Positions 5,844-32,719 of a DNA stretch of 38,125 bases are shown piece after piece (position 1 is the stretch's first letter; each line of letters starts with the position of its first letter). Source of the stretch: a bacterium ADurb.Bin243 (GTDB lineage Bacteria > Muiribacteriota > UBA9980); assembly GCA_002069765.1 (NCBI GenBank), contig MWBZ01000031.1, positions 1 to 38,125 of the forward strand, written 5' to 3'. Position numbers and translations under genes: made by a program. Under the pieces are notes generated by a model. It had not been told where the DNA came from, did no database searches, and saw only the letters and a program-made list of their open reading frames with translations.

Positions 5844-5880
5844 CGGCTTTTGCCGTTAGAAAATGCGTATGGAGTTGTTT

Positions 5881-7521
5881 ATGATAGAGAAAACCGACGT
5901 TTTATTCCTGCATGTGCCGAAATTTTCAAATTACTACAAGCCTTTCGATGAATATATGTTCATCAATTTCATTTCTATGGGGCTTTTCGCTCTGGCGGAT
6001 ATCACTCACCGCGCCGGGTATAAAACGAAAATAATCCATCTTGGAATAGAATGGATTTGCGATAATGACTTTTCGATTATAGATTACGTGGAAAAAGCCG
6101 CTCCTAAAGTTATTGCGGTGCCGATATTCTGGCATCCGCAGACTTACGACGCGATCGAAGTTATCCGCGCCGTCAAAAAAAGATTTCCAGATATTTTTGT
6201 GGTGAGCGGCGGATTTACTGCTTCTTATTTTGCGGATGAAATAATAGCCGGCATAGATGAGATAGACGCTCTGGTACGCGGCCACGGCGAGGCTTCGATA
6301 CTTCCTATCGTTAAAAACGCCGTCGAAAATTTCGGCGACCGCGATAAAGTCGATCTGGCGAAGGTTGCGAACACAACGTGGAAAAAATATTCGCCCGACG
6401 GCGCATTTTCGATCGTAAATAATGAAGAAAATTATTTCGCGTCCTGCGGCGATCTGGATAAGCTTAATTTTACGAATATAGCCCTGCTTAACAATTATGA
6501 AACTTATAAAAACAGCTTCAGGCTCAACGTGGCGTATTCCAAAACCATATCGCGCGAAGACAACCTTAAAATCACGCCTGTGCGGGCTTATCACCTGCCG
6601 CTTTTCGTCGGCCGCGGGTGTCCGACGGAATGCAAACTCTGCGCCGGCCGGCAGAAAAACCAGATCAAGATGAATTCTTCCGGCGCCGTAGTCATGCGCT
6701 CCATTGAAAAAGTTTGCGACTCCATCGAAGAAATTAAAAGCTACGGCTTCGACCAGCTTATCGTTTGCACCGATCCGTTTCCGGATAAGCCTCAATATTT
6801 TATAGACCTTTTCAGGCGCATCCGCGAGCGGGGAATCGAAATAGAAATGTTTTTCGAGTCCTGGGGGCTTCCCGCCCGCGAATTTGTCGATGAATTCGGA
6901 AAGACTTTCCATGGCAGAAATTCCGCCATAGCCATTTCCGCCGAATCGGGCTCCGAAACCGTCCGCGCCAGGATACGCGGCTATAGCTTCACTAACGCGG
7001 AGCTGTTTGAAACTCTCGACTACCTCGAAGAAAGCCGCGTCGGGTTCCTTGCGTTCTTTACTATCGGGAACCCCTTTGAAACGGAGGGCGACCTCGCCGA
7101 AACTTCCCGCCTGATTTCCGAAATTAAAGAAAAATATAATTTCGTCCGCTGGATAACCACTTATCCGGTACAGCTGGAGCCGGGTTCTGCGCTATTCGAA
7201 AACCCCGAATCTTTCGGCGCCGAAAAAATGCTTTATACCTTCATGGATTATTATAACTTTCACGGCTCGCGCGAATCGTGCCTCTACACCGATCTCGGCT
7301 ATAACATACGCGGATATTTTAAGGACCAGCCGGAACTCGCAACAAAAGATGAAAGGGTCAGATGGTTTTCTAAAAAAATAAGCGAACTCAGATGCGAGCG
7401 GTTCTGCATCCTCCATCCCGACCCGGAAACCGCACGCCATTACTGCGACAGACAGCATCAGCTTTACGTGGAGGCCGGCGGCGGCGATTATGAAAAATTC
7501 GAGAGAAAAAGTTTTGTATAA
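5881..7521 (+). CDS. radical SAM protein with N-terminal B12-binding-like domain
   Basis: Predicted cobalamin-dependent-type radical SAM enzyme (546 residues). Residues 1-170 form a Rossmann-like B12-binding domain ending in the typical VVSGGFTAS and ALVRGHGEAS segments (relatives have GGPHAS and RGEGE). The canonical DxHxxG cobalamin ligand is not seen, as in many of this class. The 4Fe-4S motif CxxxCxxC is C247, C251, C254 (RGCPTECKLC), and the later AESGSE and FFTIGNPFETEGDL segments fit the SAM barrel. The C-terminal part holds further cysteines (for example RCERFC), possibly an extra metal site. ATG 5881 is preferred over 5863 because GGAG at 5871-5874 is six bases upstream of it. Substrate unknown; a methyltransferase or ring-forming role is possible. 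Confidence 0.88.
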   Translation: MIEKTDVLFLHVPKFSNYYKPFDEYMFINFISMGLFALADITHRAGYKTKIIHLGIEWICDNDFSIIDYVEKAAPKVIAVPIFWHPQTYDAIEVIRAVKKRFPDIFVVSGGFTASYFADEIIAGIDEIDALVRGHGEASILPIVKNAVENFGDRDKVDLAKVANTTWKKYSPDGAFSIVNNEENYFASCGDLDKLNFTNIALLNNYETYKNSFRLNVAYSKTISREDNLKITPVRAYHLPLFVGRGCPTECKLCAGRQKNQIKMNSSGAVVMRSIEKVCDSIEEIKSYGFDQLIVCTDPFPDKPQYFIDLFRRIRERGIEIEMFFESWGLPAREFVDEFGKTFHGRNSAIAISAESGSETVRARIRGYSFTNAELFETLDYLEESRVGFLAFFTIGNPFETEGDLAETSRLISEIKEKYNFVRWITTYPVQLEPGSALFENPESFGAEKMLYTFMDYYNFHGSRESCLYTDLGYNIRGYFKDQPELATKDERVRWFSKKISELRCERFCILHPDPETARHYCDRQHQLYVEAGGGDYEKFERKSFV

Positions 7522-7540: not shown

Positions 7541-7587
7541 TATTAGTGGCGAATCTTTTGATTTTTGCCCGTCCGTTTAAAAATAAG

Positions 7588-7605
7588 TGCCGGCTTACGC
7601 CGGCA
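7588..7605 (+). promoter_or_regulatory. perfect hairpin abutting the ribosome binding site
   Basis: TGCCGGC, loop TTAC, GCCGGCA form a perfect 7-bp GC-rich stem. Its last base is the first base of the Shine-Dalgarno AGGAGA (7605-7610) of the gene starting at 7620. It could modulate translation or 5'-end stability, or be a dispersed short palindrome. It lacks a T tail, so it is not a terminator. Confidence 0.5.
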
Positions 7606-7619
7606 GGAGAAACGTCAAA

Positions 7620-9128
7620 ATGAAGATTTTACTTGTGCGCACTTCCTACAGGCTGCACGAAAATTATGTTTATAACAGGGTTTCGCCTCCGATGGGCGTC
7701 ATGTATCTGGCGTCGCATATCCGTTCGAAGTTTTCCGGCGCCGAAGTTAAAATCGTAGATCTGCTTATCAGGGATAATTTCGAGCGCATGCTCGCCGAGT
7801 TCAAACCCGACGTGGTGGGGTTTTCCACCCTTACCTGCGAAGCGTTCCTGCTGCCGGAGCTTATAAAGCGCGCTAAAGCCTCTTCGGCGAAGCCGCTCGT
7901 CATAGTCGGCGGGCCTCACGCCACGTCCAGCCCGCTTTCGATTTTCGCGCAGACGCTCGCCGATGCTGCAGTTCTGGGCGAAGGCGAAATCACTTTTGCG
8001 GAAATTATCGAAAAATATATTAAAAACGAGCCGCTGGAAGGAATAAAAGGCGCCATAATAAAATCCGTCGATAAAAACGGAAATTTCAAAATAGTCCGCG
8101 GAGGCGCGAGGCCGTCTATCGAAAGGCTTGACGATCTCGCATTTCCGGCGTGGGACCTTATCGAAATAGACGAATACCAGAAATATTTCGATATGAATAT
8201 CTGGCACAGCGAAGACCGCTACATGACGATCTTCACGAGCCGCGGCTGCCCTTACCAGTGCATATACTGCCACCGGATATTCGGAAAACGGCCCCGTTTC
8301 CGTTCCGCCGAGAACGTGGTCGAAGAAATCGAACTTGTGCATAAAAAATATAAAATAAAGGAATTTCAGGTCATAGACGACATTTATAACCTCTATCCGG
8401 CGCGCGTCATTAAAATAGCCCAACTGCTGAAAGAAAAAAATATAAAAGTGCTTTTTTCTTTCCCCAACGGCCTGCGGGCCGATATCCTCAACGAAGAAAC
8501 GCTCAGGGCCATGAAAGAAGCCGGAGCTTATAATCTCACCTTCGCTATCGAAAGCGCGAGCCCCCGCCTGCAAAAACTTATGCGCAAGGGCGTAGACCTT
8601 GAAAAGGCCGAAAAAGTTATCGAAATGGCCGAAAAGATGGGTTTTATCGTCAACGGTTTTTTCATGCTCGGGTTTCCCGGCGAAACTTATTTTGAAATGA
8701 TGGGCACCGTCGATTTCGCCGTGCATTCAAAGCTTCACCACGCGCTGTTTTTTTCGGTCAATCCTCACGGTTTTACCGAATTAAGCGAAACTTTTTATAA
8801 ATCTAAAGCGGATGACGCATGCGAAGGCACCCAGAAATATCACTATTTTAACCGTTACTTCAACCTGGCGAATGTTTCGCCGATTATGTTCGCATATATT
8901 ATGCTCTACGCGAATATCAGATTTTACGTATCCTTGCCCCGCGTTTATTCGCTTTTAAAGATAACGCCAAATTACATGAAATTTTTCAAGCAGGGCATTT
9001 TCTTCTTTTTTTCGATAGCTTATCACAATCTGGTCAGCCTCGTAAAAGAAGTGTACAATTCCGTCCGGCCGAAAAAAAGCCCCGAACGAATCGGCGGCGC
9101 CAAAAGCTCGAACCGGCCGGCCGGCTAA
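7620..9128 (+). CDS. B12-binding-domain radical SAM protein
   Basis: Second cobalamin-type radical SAM protein (502 residues), with the same architecture as the one upstream but clearly divergent. An N-terminal B12-binding domain (1-150) begins MKILLVRTSYR and carries VVGFSTLTCE, VIVGGPHATS and VLGEGE. The radical SAM domain has CxxxCxxC at C210, C214, C217 (RGCPYQCIYC), then a helical C terminus with a hydrophobic patch (FFKQGIFFFFS) that may associate with the membrane. The closest general class is the BchE/HpnP-like methyltransferase/cyclase group, without a specific assignment. ATG 7620 is chosen over GTG 7587 because AGGAGA precedes it and the added residues would be the translated hairpin. 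Nearby genes (ACP-like protein, AMP ligase) raise the possibility of a lipid or polyketide-type substrate; this is inference. Confidence 0.88.
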   Translation: MKILLVRTSYRLHENYVYNRVSPPMGVMYLASHIRSKFSGAEVKIVDLLIRDNFERMLAEFKPDVVGFSTLTCEAFLLPELIKRAKASSAKPLVIVGGPHATSSPLSIFAQTLADAAVLGEGEITFAEIIEKYIKNEPLEGIKGAIIKSVDKNGNFKIVRGGARPSIERLDDLAFPAWDLIEIDEYQKYFDMNIWHSEDRYMTIFTSRGCPYQCIYCHRIFGKRPRFRSAENVVEEIELVHKKYKIKEFQVIDDIYNLYPARVIKIAQLLKEKNIKVLFSFPNGLRADILNEETLRAMKEAGAYNLTFAIESASPRLQKLMRKGVDLEKAEKVIEMAEKMGFIVNGFFMLGFPGETYFEMMGTVDFAVHSKLHHALFFSVNPHGFTELSETFYKSKADDACEGTQKYHYFNRYFNLANVSPIMFAYIMLYANIRFYVSLPRVYSLLKITPNYMKFFKQGIFFFFSIAYHNLVSLVKEVYNSVRPKKSPERIGGAKSSNRPAG

Positions 9129-9198: not shown

Positions 9199-9227
9199 TT
9201 GACAGGGCATGCTTATTATGCTATAAT
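9199..9227 (+). promoter_or_regulatory. perfect-consensus sigma70 promoter with extended -10
   Basis: TTGACA (9199-9204), exactly 17 bp, TATAAT (9222-9227), with TG at 9219-9220 forming an extended -10. It is followed after about 30 bp by AAGGGGG (9257-9263) and ATG 9270. This predicts strong, largely constitutive transcription of the tandem-ACP/ligase pair. Confidence 0.9.
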
Positions 9228-9269: not shown

Positions 9270-10727
9270 ATGGATATAAAAGCTGAAGTGACCAAGATCG
9301 TTAATAAAGTAATAGGCAAATCTTCGTTTTTAGACATTTGCTTTTTTGACGCGCTTGTTCTTAGCGCCTTAAAGCAAATCGATTATATCCAGAAAACTTA
9401 CGAATTCAAAAGCTCCCCGCTTGAATTTTTAGAAATTAAATCCGTAAAGCAGCTATACGAAACCGTAAAAAAATATTCTCCAGGTTTTAATACCGATTTT
9501 AAGTCGTTCTGCGATGCGCTTTACGCCGGTTTCTGCCCCGATATCCTTAAAAACAATACGTTCACAAAAGACGAAGCGTCTAACGCCGTTTTGAAAACAA
9601 AAGAAATTTCAGGGCTCGATTTCATCGTGCCGCAGGGGTTTGAAAATAATAAAATAACCTACAGCAGAATATTTTCAGAAATTATTAAGAGCGTAAAAAC
9701 GGCGCCCCAGAAGCTTAAATACAGCGAGTCGGAACTGATGGCCAATTTAAACGGCGCCATATATTCCCTTTACGGCGAAGCAGTTTTAAACCGCGGGCTT
9801 TCGCTTGTAAACGTTTCCCGTCGCTGCAAAGACGTTATCAGCTTTTTAACCACGCTCGAAAGAGTTTTTAAAATAAAGGTCAATTATGCCGAGGTTTCCA
9901 CCGGCGATATTTTTACTAACGTTTATAAACTGCTTCGCGAACAGAGGCCCGATTTTAATTTCAACAAGGCCGTCGTCGAACAGGAAATAATGGCTATAGC
10001 CGCCAAAATATTCAACGATTCCAATATATTGCTTAATCTGATCAACGCCATAGAGGCTAAATATAAAATCAGCCTTTCAAAAGACGATTCCATATTCGCG
10101 GGCAGTTTCGAGGCTTTTATAAACGTGGTCAGCCGCGCCGTCAAAGAGCAGCAGCCTTCGGTGGCCGCCGCCGACGTTTCGCTCGACGTCATGACTTTCG
10201 CTTCAGATTTCATGTCGCGCCAGAACATTAAAGTGGCTAATCCAAAATTAACCAACGCGATAGAAAATAAATTCATATCCGATATAGAAAAAAAATTCCG
10301 CGTCACCTTTTCGGTTTTCGATCTTCTTGAAATAACCGGCCTGGAATCCACCATTAAGATAGTTGAAAGGCTCGTTAAAAAACAAAAAATAAATGAAAAA
10401 TACCCGGGCCTTCTTCCAGAGGCCGCTTCCGAGCTCAATCTTTTCGTAAGGCGTGAAATCATACGCACCTCGCGAGACAACATGATCATAGGCAGCGAAA
10501 TGATGAATACTTCCATGGAAGGCCTCGACTTTCCACGCAAGCTTGATTCCATGCTCTCTATAGAGGTAGTCGTCCAGCTCGAAAAAAATTTCAAAATTAA
10601 AATACCCGAAGAAAAACTTCACGCCATAAAAACCATAGACGATATGGCGTCACTCGTCGAAAAGCTCCTCGAAGACAAAAGCAGGCAGGCGCAGCTGCCT
10701 TCTATCGAAACTAAAGACAGGCTTTAG
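9270..10727 (+). CDS. tandem acyl-carrier-protein-like protein, most domains degenerate
   Basis: Cytoplasmic protein of 485 residues made of five clear and one weak ACP-like four-helix units. Each shows the ACP helix-2/loop pattern (hydrophobic-E-x-x-F/Y-x-I-x-I ... hydrophobic-T-hydrophobic-D-hydrophobic). Aligning each to the E. coli AcpP segment DSLDTVELVMALE puts these residues at the phosphopantetheine serine position: V30, K100 (weak unit), C186, S251, N329 and S427. The last unit (about 400-470) is canonical, with DSM then IEVVVQLEKNFKIKIPEE; the S251 unit also keeps Asp-Ser. So probably two modifiable carriers sit among scaffold-like units. It starts with a strong Shine-Dalgarno, lies behind a perfect promoter and is 12 bp before an AMP-forming ligase, its likely loading enzyme. 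No signal peptide or membrane segment. I know no named family with this layout. Confidence 0.72.
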   Translation: MDIKAEVTKIVNKVIGKSSFLDICFFDALVLSALKQIDYIQKTYEFKSSPLEFLEIKSVKQLYETVKKYSPGFNTDFKSFCDALYAGFCPDILKNNTFTKDEASNAVLKTKEISGLDFIVPQGFENNKITYSRIFSEIIKSVKTAPQKLKYSESELMANLNGAIYSLYGEAVLNRGLSLVNVSRRCKDVISFLTTLERVFKIKVNYAEVSTGDIFTNVYKLLREQRPDFNFNKAVVEQEIMAIAAKIFNDSNILLNLINAIEAKYKISLSKDDSIFAGSFEAFINVVSRAVKEQQPSVAAADVSLDVMTFASDFMSRQNIKVANPKLTNAIENKFISDIEKKFRVTFSVFDLLEITGLESTIKIVERLVKKQKINEKYPGLLPEAASELNLFVRREIIRTSRDNMIIGSEMMNTSMEGLDFPRKLDSMLSIEVVVQLEKNFKIKIPEEKLHAIKTIDDMASLVEKLLEDKSRQAQLPSIETKDRL

Positions 10728-10739
10728 TATTGATCTGAA

Positions 10740-12326
10740 ATGGATATTTGCGGCTTATTAGAAAAATACGGCTCTCAGAAAGGCCCCGCCGTATTCATCG
10801 ATTATAACGGCTTAAAGATTACTTACACCGATATAATATCGCGCTCCTATCGCGTGAGCCGCGAACTTGAACATGCCGGCCTTAAAAGAGGAGCGGTGTG
10901 CGCGCTCGTATGTTATAACAATATTAATTTTATCTTATATTTTGCCGCATGCCTTAAAGCCGGCATCATTCCTATTATTATCAATCCTAAATACGGTAAC
11001 GACGAACTCCAGTCCTTAATCGACATTTCCGAAGTCAAAACCATAATTACCGACAACGCTTTTGCTTTTTCCGAATCGTCTCCCATGGCTGACGGACGCA
11101 AAATAAATATTATTACTCCAGGCCTGGAAACGATTTTAACACAAAATGGCGGATGCCTTTATTCGGATTCCCTAAACGACGGAACGCTTTTTATGCTGGT
11201 TACATCGGCTTCCGGGGGCCGCCCGAAAATAGTCAAAAAAAATGCGGCCGCCCTGTCTTATCAGGCCGAAAAATTATATCCCCGCATAATGAGCGTTAAC
11301 GATACCAGATATATGGCGAACGTTCCCGCGTCGCACTCTTACGGCCTCGAATTCGCCCTGTTCGGCTCGATTTATAACGGCGCGCCTCTTTATCTGCGCG
11401 ATTTCGGCTTTTCTTCGGACGTTATGGACGAAATAGCTTTTAACGAAATTACACATATCTTCACTATTCCGCCTTTTATTTTAAATCTCGTTAATTATAA
11501 ATTATCTTCAGGAATCGGCTTCGACAGGCTCGAAATGGTCGTGTCCGCCGGAATGCCCCTTATGAGCGGCCTTTCTGAAAAATTTTTCGGAGCTTTTAAT
11601 TTTAATATAGCCTCGGTTTACGGCATCACCGAAGTCGGCTGCGTCAGCTTTAACCTCGGCCGCAGAAGTTCGGCCGAAAACCGCGCCACAATAAACAACG
11701 ACGTGGGCTTTGCGCTCGAAGGTAACGCTATAACGGTTATCGATGACGCCGGCGCGGCGGTCAGGGCCGTAACGCGCGATGTTCACGGCCGCCTTAAAGA
11801 AGGCGATAGCGACTCGATCAGAGAAAATATAGGCCGCGTTATAATAAGAAAAAAAATCCCCGACGGCGGTTATTATAAATTTAATTGCCCCGAAGGCGAA
11901 GCAAAATGGCGCCTCGGCGGCACGGAGCTCGAAACCGACGACAGCGGCTATATAGACCCGTCCGGCGCGCTTCACCTTCTTGCGCGCAGCAGCGCCTTTG
12001 TGAATATCGGCGGCGTCAAGGTCAATTCTTCTGACGTGGAGGCGTTTTTACGCTCTACAGGTCTTTTTAAAGACGTGCTCGTCTTCGGCCGCAAAGACGC
12101 TTTGCTTGGCGAAAAACTCGCGGCCGCAATGGTCGTCGATGAAGGCTCGAATGCGAACGAAGACGAAATACGCGGCCTGTGCGCGAAAAAACTTCCGCCG
12201 GTAAAGGTGCCCCGCGATATTTATATTCTGAAAAGCCCTTTTCCGAGAACGTCCACAGGCAAAATACGCTTCGATAAAGTCCTGAAAATGGTCGAAGAGA
12301 CTAAAGATTCTCAGGCGGCTGAGTAG
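10740..12326 (+). CDS. AMP-forming acyl/aryl ligase (ANL superfamily)
   Basis: Activates a carboxylic acid with ATP to an acyl-adenylate and transfers it to a thiol of CoA or a carrier protein. ANL motifs in the 528 residues: P-loop-like VTSASGGRPKIVKK (degenerate from TSGTTGxPK), VYGITEVG (YGxTE), a DDSGYID segment in place of TGD, the hinge (LLARSSAFVNIGG, with the usual GR changed to AR) and the C-terminal PRTSTGKIRF containing the catalytic lysine. Several motif changes suggest a divergent clade but not loss of function. The gene is 12 bp after the tandem-ACP gene, with no strong Shine-Dalgarno, so translation may be coupled. The likely role is loading the neighbouring carrier (inference). 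Its 3' end overlaps the convergent ribU-like gene by 26 bp. Confidence 0.87.
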   Translation: MDICGLLEKYGSQKGPAVFIDYNGLKITYTDIISRSYRVSRELEHAGLKRGAVCALVCYNNINFILYFAACLKAGIIPIIINPKYGNDELQSLIDISEVKTIITDNAFAFSESSPMADGRKINIITPGLETILTQNGGCLYSDSLNDGTLFMLVTSASGGRPKIVKKNAAALSYQAEKLYPRIMSVNDTRYMANVPASHSYGLEFALFGSIYNGAPLYLRDFGFSSDVMDEIAFNEITHIFTIPPFILNLVNYKLSSGIGFDRLEMVVSAGMPLMSGLSEKFFGAFNFNIASVYGITEVGCVSFNLGRRSSAENRATINNDVGFALEGNAITVIDDAGAAVRAVTRDVHGRLKEGDSDSIRENIGRVIIRKKIPDGGYYKFNCPEGEAKWRLGGTELETDDSGYIDPSGALHLLARSSAFVNIGGVKVNSSDVEAFLRSTGLFKDVLVFGRKDALLGEKLAAAMVVDEGSNANEDEIRGLCAKKLPPVKVPRDIYILKSPFPRTSTGKIRFDKVLKMVEETKDSQAAE

Positions 12327-16552: not shown

Positions 16553-16585
16553 ATGCTTAGAAAGAAAAATCAAGGAGGCGCCGTT

Positions 16586-17764
16586 ATGAGTAAAAAATTT
16601 TTTTTCAAACTTAATTTTTTTGCGTTAATCTTTGCAGTGGCCGTTTTAACTTTTTCAGCGAGTGCGCTCGCTTCACAGTTCGAATATGAATACCTGGTTA
16701 AAATTTTCGGCAAATCTTTTTCGGAAAAGCGTTTGATCGCTGAAATGATAAACGCCAGATATCCCGGATTGCCCGAAGATATTTTAAATATAATCGAGTC
16801 GAAATATTCCGCTTTGCCGCTTCGTATTCCGTCTATTGCGAATTCATGCTTCAAAGACGGCGCGAAGGGAAAATTAAAACTTATCAGATCGGCGTTCGCT
16901 TCGCTTAAAACCGATTACGACGGTGCGCTGCAAGCGTTCATTAAAGATTTTGCAGAAAATATACTAAAACCCAATCCGGCATTGATCGACGATCTTATCG
17001 CTAAAAAAGGCGAAATGAAATCACTTGCGTCAAAACATGAAACTTTAGCTAAAACCCTCCTCGAGTCGAAAGATGAAATTAAAGCGCTTGTCGAAGCCCG
17101 CCACGCCTCGGTAAAAGATGAAATTAAAAACGCCGCGGTCACTAATTTTAAAAAGATAAATCCTGAAATATTAAAAAAAGCGGCCGGCGATTTTAAAAAT
17201 TTCAGAGATAATAACCCGCAGCTTATAGAATGCGCCGGCAAACTTAAAAATAAATTTCCGGATATGAAAAAACCGGGCATTATTGTGATTTCGCTCCTGA
17301 AAAATCCGGAAACGCTCGTCAAACTGACCGAAATAATCGGCTCAGGGTATAAAAACGAAATATGCTCGTTTATCGAAGGGTTCTTAGATACCCTGATCGA
17401 GAACGGCGGCGGAGACTTTTTTTCTTTGCGGGCCGATATCGCCGATCTGCTCAATAAAAAAAATCCGGGAGTTCTGTTTAAGGCGGCTAAATTCAAACTC
17501 GAAGCGAAAAGAAATATGGCGGCATTTATAAAAGAAAAATATCCGCAATTGCCGGAAAAAATTTCCGGGCTTCTCGATAAACATTTCGGGGCGTTTTTTC
17601 AAAAAATCACACAAATCATAAATAAAGAGCAGCCTGAGCTCATAAAAAGCGTTTTAACTAAAGTTAGAAGCGAATTCGGAGGACTTGAAAAAGATATCGA
17701 TTTGCTGCTTAAAGAAAAATACCCGTCGCTTTTAAGCGATATCGAAAGCGGAACGGCTAAATAA
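16586..17764 (+). CDS. secreted alpha-helical repeat protein, function unknown
   Basis: I do not recognise a family. The 392-residue product begins with a clear Sec signal peptide (Lys-rich start, hydrophobic core, likely cleavage after SALA, about residue 29). The mature part is Lys/Glu/Leu-rich and predicted almost wholly helical. A motif of a Pro following Asn, Tyr or Gln, then x-Leu/Ile, recurs (prolines at about 60, 131, 193, 211, 241, 294, 320, 350, 380), with several spacings of exactly 30 residues (211-241, 320-350-380), suggesting about 30-residue helical hairpins. ATG 16586 is chosen because AAGGAGG lies 14 bases upstream and gives a proper signal peptide; an upstream ATG at 16553 adds 11 unrelated residues. 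It may bind other envelope components or be the output of the adjacent two-component system. Confidence 0.8.
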   Translation: MSKKFFFKLNFFALIFAVAVLTFSASALASQFEYEYLVKIFGKSFSEKRLIAEMINARYPGLPEDILNIIESKYSALPLRIPSIANSCFKDGAKGKLKLIRSAFASLKTDYDGALQAFIKDFAENILKPNPALIDDLIAKKGEMKSLASKHETLAKTLLESKDEIKALVEARHASVKDEIKNAAVTNFKKINPEILKKAAGDFKNFRDNNPQLIECAGKLKNKFPDMKKPGIIVISLLKNPETLVKLTEIIGSGYKNEICSFIEGFLDTLIENGGGDFFSLRADIADLLNKKNPGVLFKAAKFKLEAKRNMAAFIKEKYPQLPEKISGLLDKHFGAFFQKITQIINKEQPELIKSVLTKVRSEFGGLEKDIDLLLKEKYPSLLSDIESGTAK

Positions 17765-18389: not shown

Positions 18390-18418
18390 TTGACAGGAGC
18401 GTTTTTTTTTGGTATAAT
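18390..18418 (+). promoter_or_regulatory. perfect-consensus sigma70 promoter
   Basis: TTGACA (18390-18395), 17 bp, TATAAT (18413-18418). The expected 5' untranslated region is about 105 bases before ATG 18531, long for this window and AT-rich, without an obvious riboswitch fold. Confidence 0.88.
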
Positions 18419-18530
18419 TATTCTATCAGTTTTTTATAAATCATAAATATATAGTATCAAGCGCGCTAAAAAGCGTGTTTTATTTTTATTTAGTTAAGCA
18501 AAAAAATAATAAAAGAAACGAGGAATGAGT

Positions 18531-31947: not shown

Positions 31948-32719
31948 TTACTTCACCCGTCGTCCGCTCGCCGTCCGGCGCCGAATTGCCGCCGGCGAGT
32001 TCGGCCTGATTGCTTATCAGCGAATAGTACAGAATATTTACGCCCATTTTAAAGGCGGTTTCCCTGACTTCCGGCGGGTCGTTGTGCGTTTTGGGGTCGG
32101 CCCAGCCGTCTGAAATATTGGATTCGTATGTGTATAAAAGCACTATGCGGTTTTCGTGGAAAATGGCGAAAGCTTCAGGCGCTTTGGCATCGTGTTCGTG
32201 AATTTTAGGAAGGCCTTCGGCGAATTTATAGAAACAGTCGAAAATCGGATGGCCGTCAGGAACTTTTTTTAATTCGTATTCGGGAAAAAGTTTTTTGACT
32301 TCCCGGCGGAAACTTTCGTCGAGCCCGTAGTCGTCATCTACGTATAAAAACCCGCCGTTTAAAAGATATTTTCTCAGATTTTCGATATCGGCGGTTTCCA
32401 GCTTGAGATTTCCGTGCCCGGTGAGGTATAAGAACGGCAGCTCGAAAATTTTAGGCTGGTCGGGCGTGACTACGACTTCTTTGACGTAGCACTTAACTCC
32501 AGCGCGTTTTTCGAATTCGCCAAGCATATTCGGCAGCACTTCGGGATCGTTGTACCAGTCGCCGCCGCCTTTATATTTGACGCGCCCGGCGGAAAAAAAA
32601 GGCTGGCTTACCGCGCCGGCTTCGTACGGCGATAACGATATCAGCGCCGCTGAAAAGATAAAGAAAAAAGCCAGCGGCGGCATTATAATTTTTTTAATTT
32701 TAATCATAAAAATTTTCAT
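31937..32719 (-). CDS. DUF4159 exported protein
   Basis: A 260-residue exported protein: signal peptide (hydrophobic core LAFFFIFSAALISL, cleavage near EAGA) followed by the diagnostic RVKYKGGGDWYNDPEVLPNML, LTGHGNLKL, GGFLYVDDDYGLDESFRREV and a C-terminal TAFKMGVNILYYSL. The fold is class-I glutamine-amidotransferase-like but without a Cys nucleophile, so it is thought to bind rather than cleave. It lies between the second vWA gene (49-bp gap) and DUF4175 (11-bp overlap). ATG 32719 has GAGG seven bases upstream. It probably acts at the periplasmic face of the vWA/DUF4175 machine. Confidence 0.9.
   Translation of the reverse strand: MKIFMIKIKKIIMPPLAFFFIFSAALISLSPYEAGAVSQPFFSAGRVKYKGGGDWYNDPEVLPNMLGEFEKRAGVKCYVKEVVVTPDQPKIFELPFLYLTGHGNLKLETADIENLRKYLLNGGFLYVDDDYGLDESFRREVKKLFPEYELKKVPDGHPIFDCFYKFAEGLPKIHEHDAKAPEAFAIFHENRIVLLYTYESNISDGWADPKTHNDPPEVRETAFKMGVNILYYSLISNQAELAGGNSAPDGERTTGEVNAK

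Follow-up and report, generated by a model that had tools for sequence, protein, structure and literature searches.

The window, that is, the whole stretch of 38,125 nucleotides analysed here, holds two genes for B12-binding radical SAM proteins followed, on the same strand, by a consensus promoter, an open reading frame and a gene for an AMP-forming acyl ligase (Table 1). The open reading frame starts and stops exactly where the preliminary description had placed it and, as judged from comparisons of its sequence, the 485-residue product, hereafter the array, is built of five tandem units resembling acyl carrier proteins (ACPs), with a further helical stretch between the first two of them.

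Table 1. Features of the array locus (nucleotide positions are those of the window)
Feature	Residues	Position	Strand	Remarks
B12-binding radical SAM protein, possible partner		5863..7521	+	PF02310, PF04055; CPTECKLC; also upstream in L026
B12-binding radical SAM protein, possible partner		7587..9128	+	PF02310, PF04055; CPYQCIYC; also upstream in L026
Sigma-70 type promoter, TTGACA-17-TATAAT		9199..9227	+	12/12 consensus, TG before -10; 42 bases before array ATG
Array open reading frame	485 aa	9270-10727	+	ATG at 9270; stop codon ends at 10727
Unit u1, degenerate ACP-like	1-73	9270..9488	+	Val30 at carrier position; matrix rank 4/440
Stretch u2, helical, ACP origin not established	74-149	9489..9716	+	K100 is the candidate position
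Unit u3, degenerate ACP-like	150-228	9717..9953	+	Cys186 at carrier position; matrix rank 5/440
Unit u4, degenerate ACP-like, without loop I	229-300	9954..10169	+	Asp250-Ser251-Asn252; matrix rank 2/440
Unit u5, degenerate ACP-like	301-380	10170..10409	+	Asn329 at carrier position; matrix rank 3/440
Unit u6, canonical carrier	381-473	10410..10688	+	Asp426-Ser427-Met428; PF00550 42.4 bits; matrix rank 1/440
Ser427 codon, predicted phosphopantetheine attachment site	427	10548..10550	+	Coordinates from residue number; in register with carrier Ser
AMP-forming acyl ligase		10740..12326	+	PF00501 136.5 bits (cut-off 29.9); PF13193 42.1 (24.5)

Complete relatives of the array are present in two other genomes, namely, L026 (JAKPTH010000539.1, 96% identity) and L027 (DIVV01000061.1, from an assembly labeled UBP16 UBA6123, 84%), so that the open reading frame is intact in three genomes; L026 and the genome denoted G001 are probably one and the same. 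The distribution beyond this is narrow. Another genome of the same genus (G002, 76% complete) has no array, viral contigs contain no homologue, and the 39 genomes of the phylum yielded none beyond the genus, the other 11 matches falling at residues 369-479, on u6 and its edge. A profile of residues 1-381 run against 381 genomes likewise found none beyond the genus, except for one match at E 0.043 that is read as chance, and a contig search, which finds close relatives only, returned two, one of them probably G001.

Pfam recognizes a single carrier domain in the array above the cut-off of 20.8 bits, with the best stretch at residues 425-462 of u6 and, matches below cut-off aside, the protein hits only carrier families in Pfam and NCBIfam. 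Neither collection detects domains of the KS or AT type in it, and thus it is not embedded in a PUFA synthase or PKS. Scanned singly, u1 to u5 give nothing in Pfam at E 10 or less and, in NCBIfam, a weak match to the AsbD carrier for u4 (E 0.083) and one to valS for u3 (E 0.12). Because Pfam sees only u6, a more sensitive test of the ACP assignment was needed. We therefore aligned 36 ACPs, 30 from related genomes (L049-L078) and six ACP-type carriers encoded in the genome to which the window belongs, and turned 46 alignment columns, beginning with the carrier serine, into an ungapped matrix that was scanned over 440 positions of the array. That genome has 18 places with a PF00550 match, of which 16 were taken as carriers (by eye, 6 ACP-type and 10 PCP-type); left out were the domain in u6 and one match of 34 residues within the window, read as chance. 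The PF00550 match at 32468-32569 of the window scores 23.4 bits, lies on the strand opposite a long open reading frame and is read as chance; contigs C7, C8 and C19 of the same genome (G000) have large open frames, of 5194, 2737 and 2725 aa, each of which contains several carrier domains and probably encodes an NRPS/PKS protein.

Apart from K100, the residues that the preliminary description had put at the carrier position are exactly the five best of the 440, in the order S427, S251, N329, V30 and C186. Among the 8040 positions of 17 other proteins of the window, scores at least as high as those of 427, 251, 329, 30 and 186 occur 0, 0, 3, 5 and 7 times, respectively, and in a larger control of 47 open reading frames, taken from three fetched loci and from the window (window frames starting between 9200 and 10800 excluded), 0, 0, 6, 12 and 14 times in 20586. 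When residues 1-385 were shuffled, none of 300 shuffles had four positions above the weakest degenerate score, and 92 had at least one. The units also resemble one another: of 77815 internal pairs, all ten among the five are in the top 1.9%, and the best of the ten, u4-u5, is in the top 0.005%. The proposed sixth unit, with K100 in u2, fared differently. K100 ranks 47 and 46 of 440 in two scans with the ACP matrix, which rejects it as a carrier position, and u2 matches neither of the whole-unit profiles (A5 and A4) nor, by hhalign, the ACPs. A matrix of the 10 PCP-type carriers puts K100 sixth of 440, yet with it 251 drops to ninth place and 186 to eleventh, and for this reason u2 is kept as a candidate only. 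Thus, of the five or six units initially proposed, five are borne out by the matrix, the four degenerate ones among them also, when pooled, by the PDB profile search described below, and the K100 unit is not established.

The profile denoted A5 was made from u1, u3, u4 and u5 of the window and of L027, with the canonical u6 left out. Compared with all PDB sequences, it gave 20 listed matches up to E 10, and the seven best are all ACPs, led by 3gzl (E 2.1e-5) and 2fq0 (5.4e-5), the other five lying at 0.0035 to 0.042. This is the strongest single result for the ACP origin of the degenerate units, and profile similarity of this kind indicates that, taken together, u1, u3, u4 and u5 belong to the ACP superfamily by descent. 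Across 381 genomes, 22 have an A5 match at E 0.01, and more than one match is seen only in the two array-holding genomes, with four each; among the ten best A5 loci fetched from outside the genus, inspection by eye recognized eight ACPs, including a near-identical pair, and two proteins of other kinds.

Single units give a more graded picture. With hhalign, single-sequence segments score 48.0 (u6), 21.0 (u4), 18.1 (u3), 15.0 (u1, in an alignment of 68 columns), 14.1 (u5) and 9.9 (u2) against the alignment of 36 ACPs; 190 control segments were cut from 14 other proteins of the window, and of these, nine score 14 or more, seven 15 or more and none as much as 18, so that u4 and u3 exceed all controls, and u1 and u5 lie within the control tail. 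Submitted as one sequence against the same profile, the whole array returns only u6 and u4. Against six ACPs, the hhalign probabilities are 1% for u1, 22% for u3, 37% for u4, 1% for u5 and 95% for u6; in the six-ACP test with three homologues, the alignments again place 30, 186, 251, 329 and 427 at the carrier position, and the observed scores of u1 to u6 are reached by 17, 219, 0, 0, 19 and 0 of 300 shuffles.

It could be argued from the position of u1 and u5 within the control tail, and from the absence of Pfam matches for single segments, that the first 380 residues form no more than a generic helical protein, its likeness to ACPs stemming from helix pattern and composition. The structure models, which have no strong match of any kind, seem to point the same way. 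AlphaFold, run on three sequences, gave a mean pLDDT of 57 for the full length, with only 22-48 for the true carrier u6, and 70.7 for residues 1-228 (also three sequences); the other four models had 48.0 or less. With the full-length model, Foldseek returned 106 matches up to E 10, none at 0.001 and no ACP among the best 50; with the 1-228 model it returned 37, none at 0.001 and none a free-standing ACP, although chains of yeast fatty acid synthase appeared at E 5 to 10. VIA-align 2 aligned 283 chains, of which 14 had Z 2 or more and none Z 5, with no ACP among the 13 listed. However, because AlphaFold failed on u6, the positive control, we read these fold searches as uninformative. Within the models, u1 is predicted to form helices at 3-14, 20-24, 28-44, 50-55 and 59-69 (full-length model, pLDDT 57), repeated in the 1-228 model, which we take to be the layout expected of an ACP from the helix positions of AcpP. 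Given the register, its controls and a profile of the degenerate units that returns ACPs first in the PDB, a generic helical origin seems very improbable.

The preliminary description assigned the carrier serine to two units, S251 and S427. The second is canonical: u6 combines the PF00550 domain with a serine followed by Met428, and in the 46 carriers compared, the serine is followed by Leu in 41, Ile in four and Met in one. Asp426-Ser427 is identical in all three homologues, with Met next. At the register positions of u1, u3 and u5, the attachment serine is missing, its place being taken by Val30 and Asn329 in all three homologues and by Cys186 in two, with Ala in L027. The status of S251 is doubtful. 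It holds the carrier register only under an ungapped reading; in the whole-unit alignments (A4 and A5), N249-N252 close helix I, and u4 has a gap at loop I and at the carrier position, so that u4 does not have a serine placed after loop I and followed by Leu, Ile or Met, as a carrier should. An array with two carriers, in which S251 and S427 both receive phosphopantetheine and the remaining units are spacers, would nonetheless fit the retention of Asp250-Ser251 in all three homologues, the second place of S251 in the ungapped matrix and the position of u4 among the best conserved units. Against it stands, besides the gap, Asn252 directly after S251, a place occupied by Leu, Ile or Met in 46 of the 46 carriers compared, and we consider a two-carrier array quite unlikely. 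S251 is accordingly rejected as a firm carrier; since its unit is without loop I and Asn follows the serine, one working carrier, S427, is probably to be expected rather than two.

That three units lack the serine, and a fourth its context, would also be the mark of a formerly multi-ACP protein in decay, of which only the last unit still matters. Selection largely refutes this. Compared with L027, dN/dS is 0.076 for u1, 0.091 for u2, 0.091 for u3, 0.028 for u4, 0.022 for u5 and 0.056 for u6 with its tail, rough values, with synonymous sites near saturation and the u6 figure including a loose C-terminal tail; u2, for which the value against L026 is 0.119, is the fastest evolving of the six, with 68% identity to L027 compared to 84% overall. 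In cores of 43 residues, the identities to L027 are 35 (u1), 36 (u3), 41 (u4), 42 (u5) and 37 (u6), the dN/dS of the u6 core being not computable against L027 because of saturated synonymous sites, and 76 of the 80 residues of u5 are as in L027. Thus, every unit is under purifying selection, and u4 and u5 are at least as conserved as the carrier u6. Together with the open reading frame intact in three genomes, this makes decay scarcely credible, and we reject it. The core of the initial proposal, a free-standing series of tandem ACP-derived units, mostly devoid of the serine, next to a single AMP ligase, is supported, and the purifying selection implies that the blank units are used.

The units retain the hydrophobic pattern of helices II and IV, and ACP bundles sequester acyl chains, so that the helical cores of the blank units might take up such chains noncovalently and serve the product on u6 as a reservoir or sleeve. 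Loop I, however, is missing or shortened in u4 and u5, according to a low-confidence model and the whole-unit alignments, which should narrow the pocket, and we regard this possibility as distinctly improbable. The blank units do not preserve the acidic character that helix II has in ordinary ACPs: counted over 19 residues, Lys plus Arg to Asp plus Glu is 2:2 in u1, 5:2 in u3, 2:2 in u4 and 4:3 in u5, compared to 2:3 in u6. Docking by the usual ACP face is therefore disfavored.

The promoter hexamers and the 17-base spacer recur in L026 and L027, 42 and 40 bases before the ATG, respectively, and the ligase starts 12 bases after the stop codon of the array here and 7 bases after it in L027, where the open reading frame behind the array is similar, as judged by eye. 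In G001, the contig with the array ends about 215 bases past it, and a truncated copy of the ligase gene terminates another contig. Array and ligase thus make up a unit of two genes that has a conserved promoter to itself. The pair is found in one genus only, and the ligase is as confined as the array, with 2 of 142 genomes matching at E 1e-30. It contains the stretches VTSASGGRPK, YGITE and TSTGK; among the 25 of 97 NCBIfam matches listed, it passes no cut-off, and solved chains that match it at E 1e-20 or less number only two, both oxalate-CoA ligases. The host genome encodes two phosphopantetheinyl transferases (PF01648, open frames of 133 and 243 aa), and no gene for a KS, condensation or thioesterase protein was noticed by eye among the listed open reading frames of the window. 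The window contains a second 12/12 sigma-70 consensus promoter, at 18390-18418, upstream of a 531-aa open reading frame that begins at 18525; its product matches nothing in Pfam at E 0.01.

The preliminary description also suggested that the degenerate units may dock the upstream radical SAM enzymes. This was not supported: a consensus promoter belonging to the array separates it from those genes, so that the link is one of adjacency only. Around the relatives of the second radical SAM protein in three genomes (L008-L010, with 1500-base flanks), no array was seen by eye among open reading frames of at least 120 aa. A paralogue of the first (5863..7521) lies beside LuxE-type and LuxC-type genes in the same genome, at L090:4669-10144 (contig C112 of G000; families tested), and L093 of G001 has the same radical SAM/LuxE/LuxC order by eye. 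The L090 locus might represent a Lux-like acyl pathway with a B12 radical SAM enzyme and, through these LuxE and LuxC neighbors, the radical SAM family could be linked, loosely, to acyl activation.

Among known systems, tandem ACPs are understood as a means to increase the number of loaded carriers. The natural ACPs of PUFA synthase subunit A (PfaA) are active, closely alike and located inside a megasynthase, whereas the units described here are diverged, mostly without the serine, and free-standing. Pairs of the DltA/DltC type consist of an AMP-forming ligase encoded beside its own carrier, a single domain of about 80 aa; the ligase adjoins the carrier here as well, but the carrier belongs to a protein of 485 aa with four blank units. 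With the type II ACPs (PF00550, TIGR00517), u6 shares the carrier domain and the Asp-Ser motif, and u1, u3, u4 and u5 share the pattern from helix II to helix IV; unlike in those proteins, the units are fused in tandem, and the serine is absent or doubtful outside u6. Like the array, PfaA has several ACP units in a row, described as beads on a string (PMC5067506). An engineered PUFA synthase array of five ACPs, one of them inactivated, yields about 250% of the output of a four-ACP array and about 30% of that of five active ACPs, and replacing the inactive ACP with an unrelated sequence lowers output to about 3% (PMC5067506). The experiment is a precedent for a serine-less ACP that still adds to the output of a tandem array, with the drop to about 30% counting the other way (PMC5067506). 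The iterative PKS RerA is similar in having two adjacent ACPs and differs in that these lie inside a PKS with KS, AT, KR and DH domains; the inactive ACPs mentioned for it appear to be engineered (PMC11563203). In the literature, searched mostly outside subscription journals, no natural free-standing scaffold array of blank ACPs was found, which is weak evidence of novelty. The array can be viewed as a new variant of the tandem-ACP theme.

The explanation that we favor, to which we give slightly less than an even chance of being right, is that of a ligase-carrier pair, with S427 loaded by the ligase and the blank units serving as a docking or spacer arm. Under this scenario, the AMP ligase would activate a carboxylic acid and load the C-terminal carrier with it, the acid being joined to a phosphopantetheine arm that a cellular phosphopantetheinyl transferase had attached to Ser427. 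The four degenerate ACP-derived units, and perhaps u2, would carry no cargo; having kept the ACP pattern from helix II to helix IV, they could form beads on a string that hold the ligase near the sole loaded carrier and, possibly, bring in later enzymes, such as the neighboring B12 radical SAM proteins. A bolder version, which we entertain tentatively and consider rather unlikely, is that of a natural pseudo-carrier array selected without cargo, a dedicated docking strip on which the ligase and later enzymes would gather about one loaded carrier. If this holds, ACP units can be retained for structure or docking alone, with selection preserving four units that lack a proper carrier serine, and two of these no less strictly than the carrier; such docking would be instructive for designing scaffolds in carrier-based biosynthesis.

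Several other features of the window deserve mention. At 12301-12326, the 3' ends of the ligase gene and of a convergent gene for an ECF transporter S component overlap. The region 16553-17764 is an open reading frame of 403 aa, the Pfam matches of which are weak and all below cut-off. Between 18012 and 18364, short, overlapping open reading frames rich in Ala, Pro and Arg are found on both strands and look, by eye, unlike the neighboring genes.
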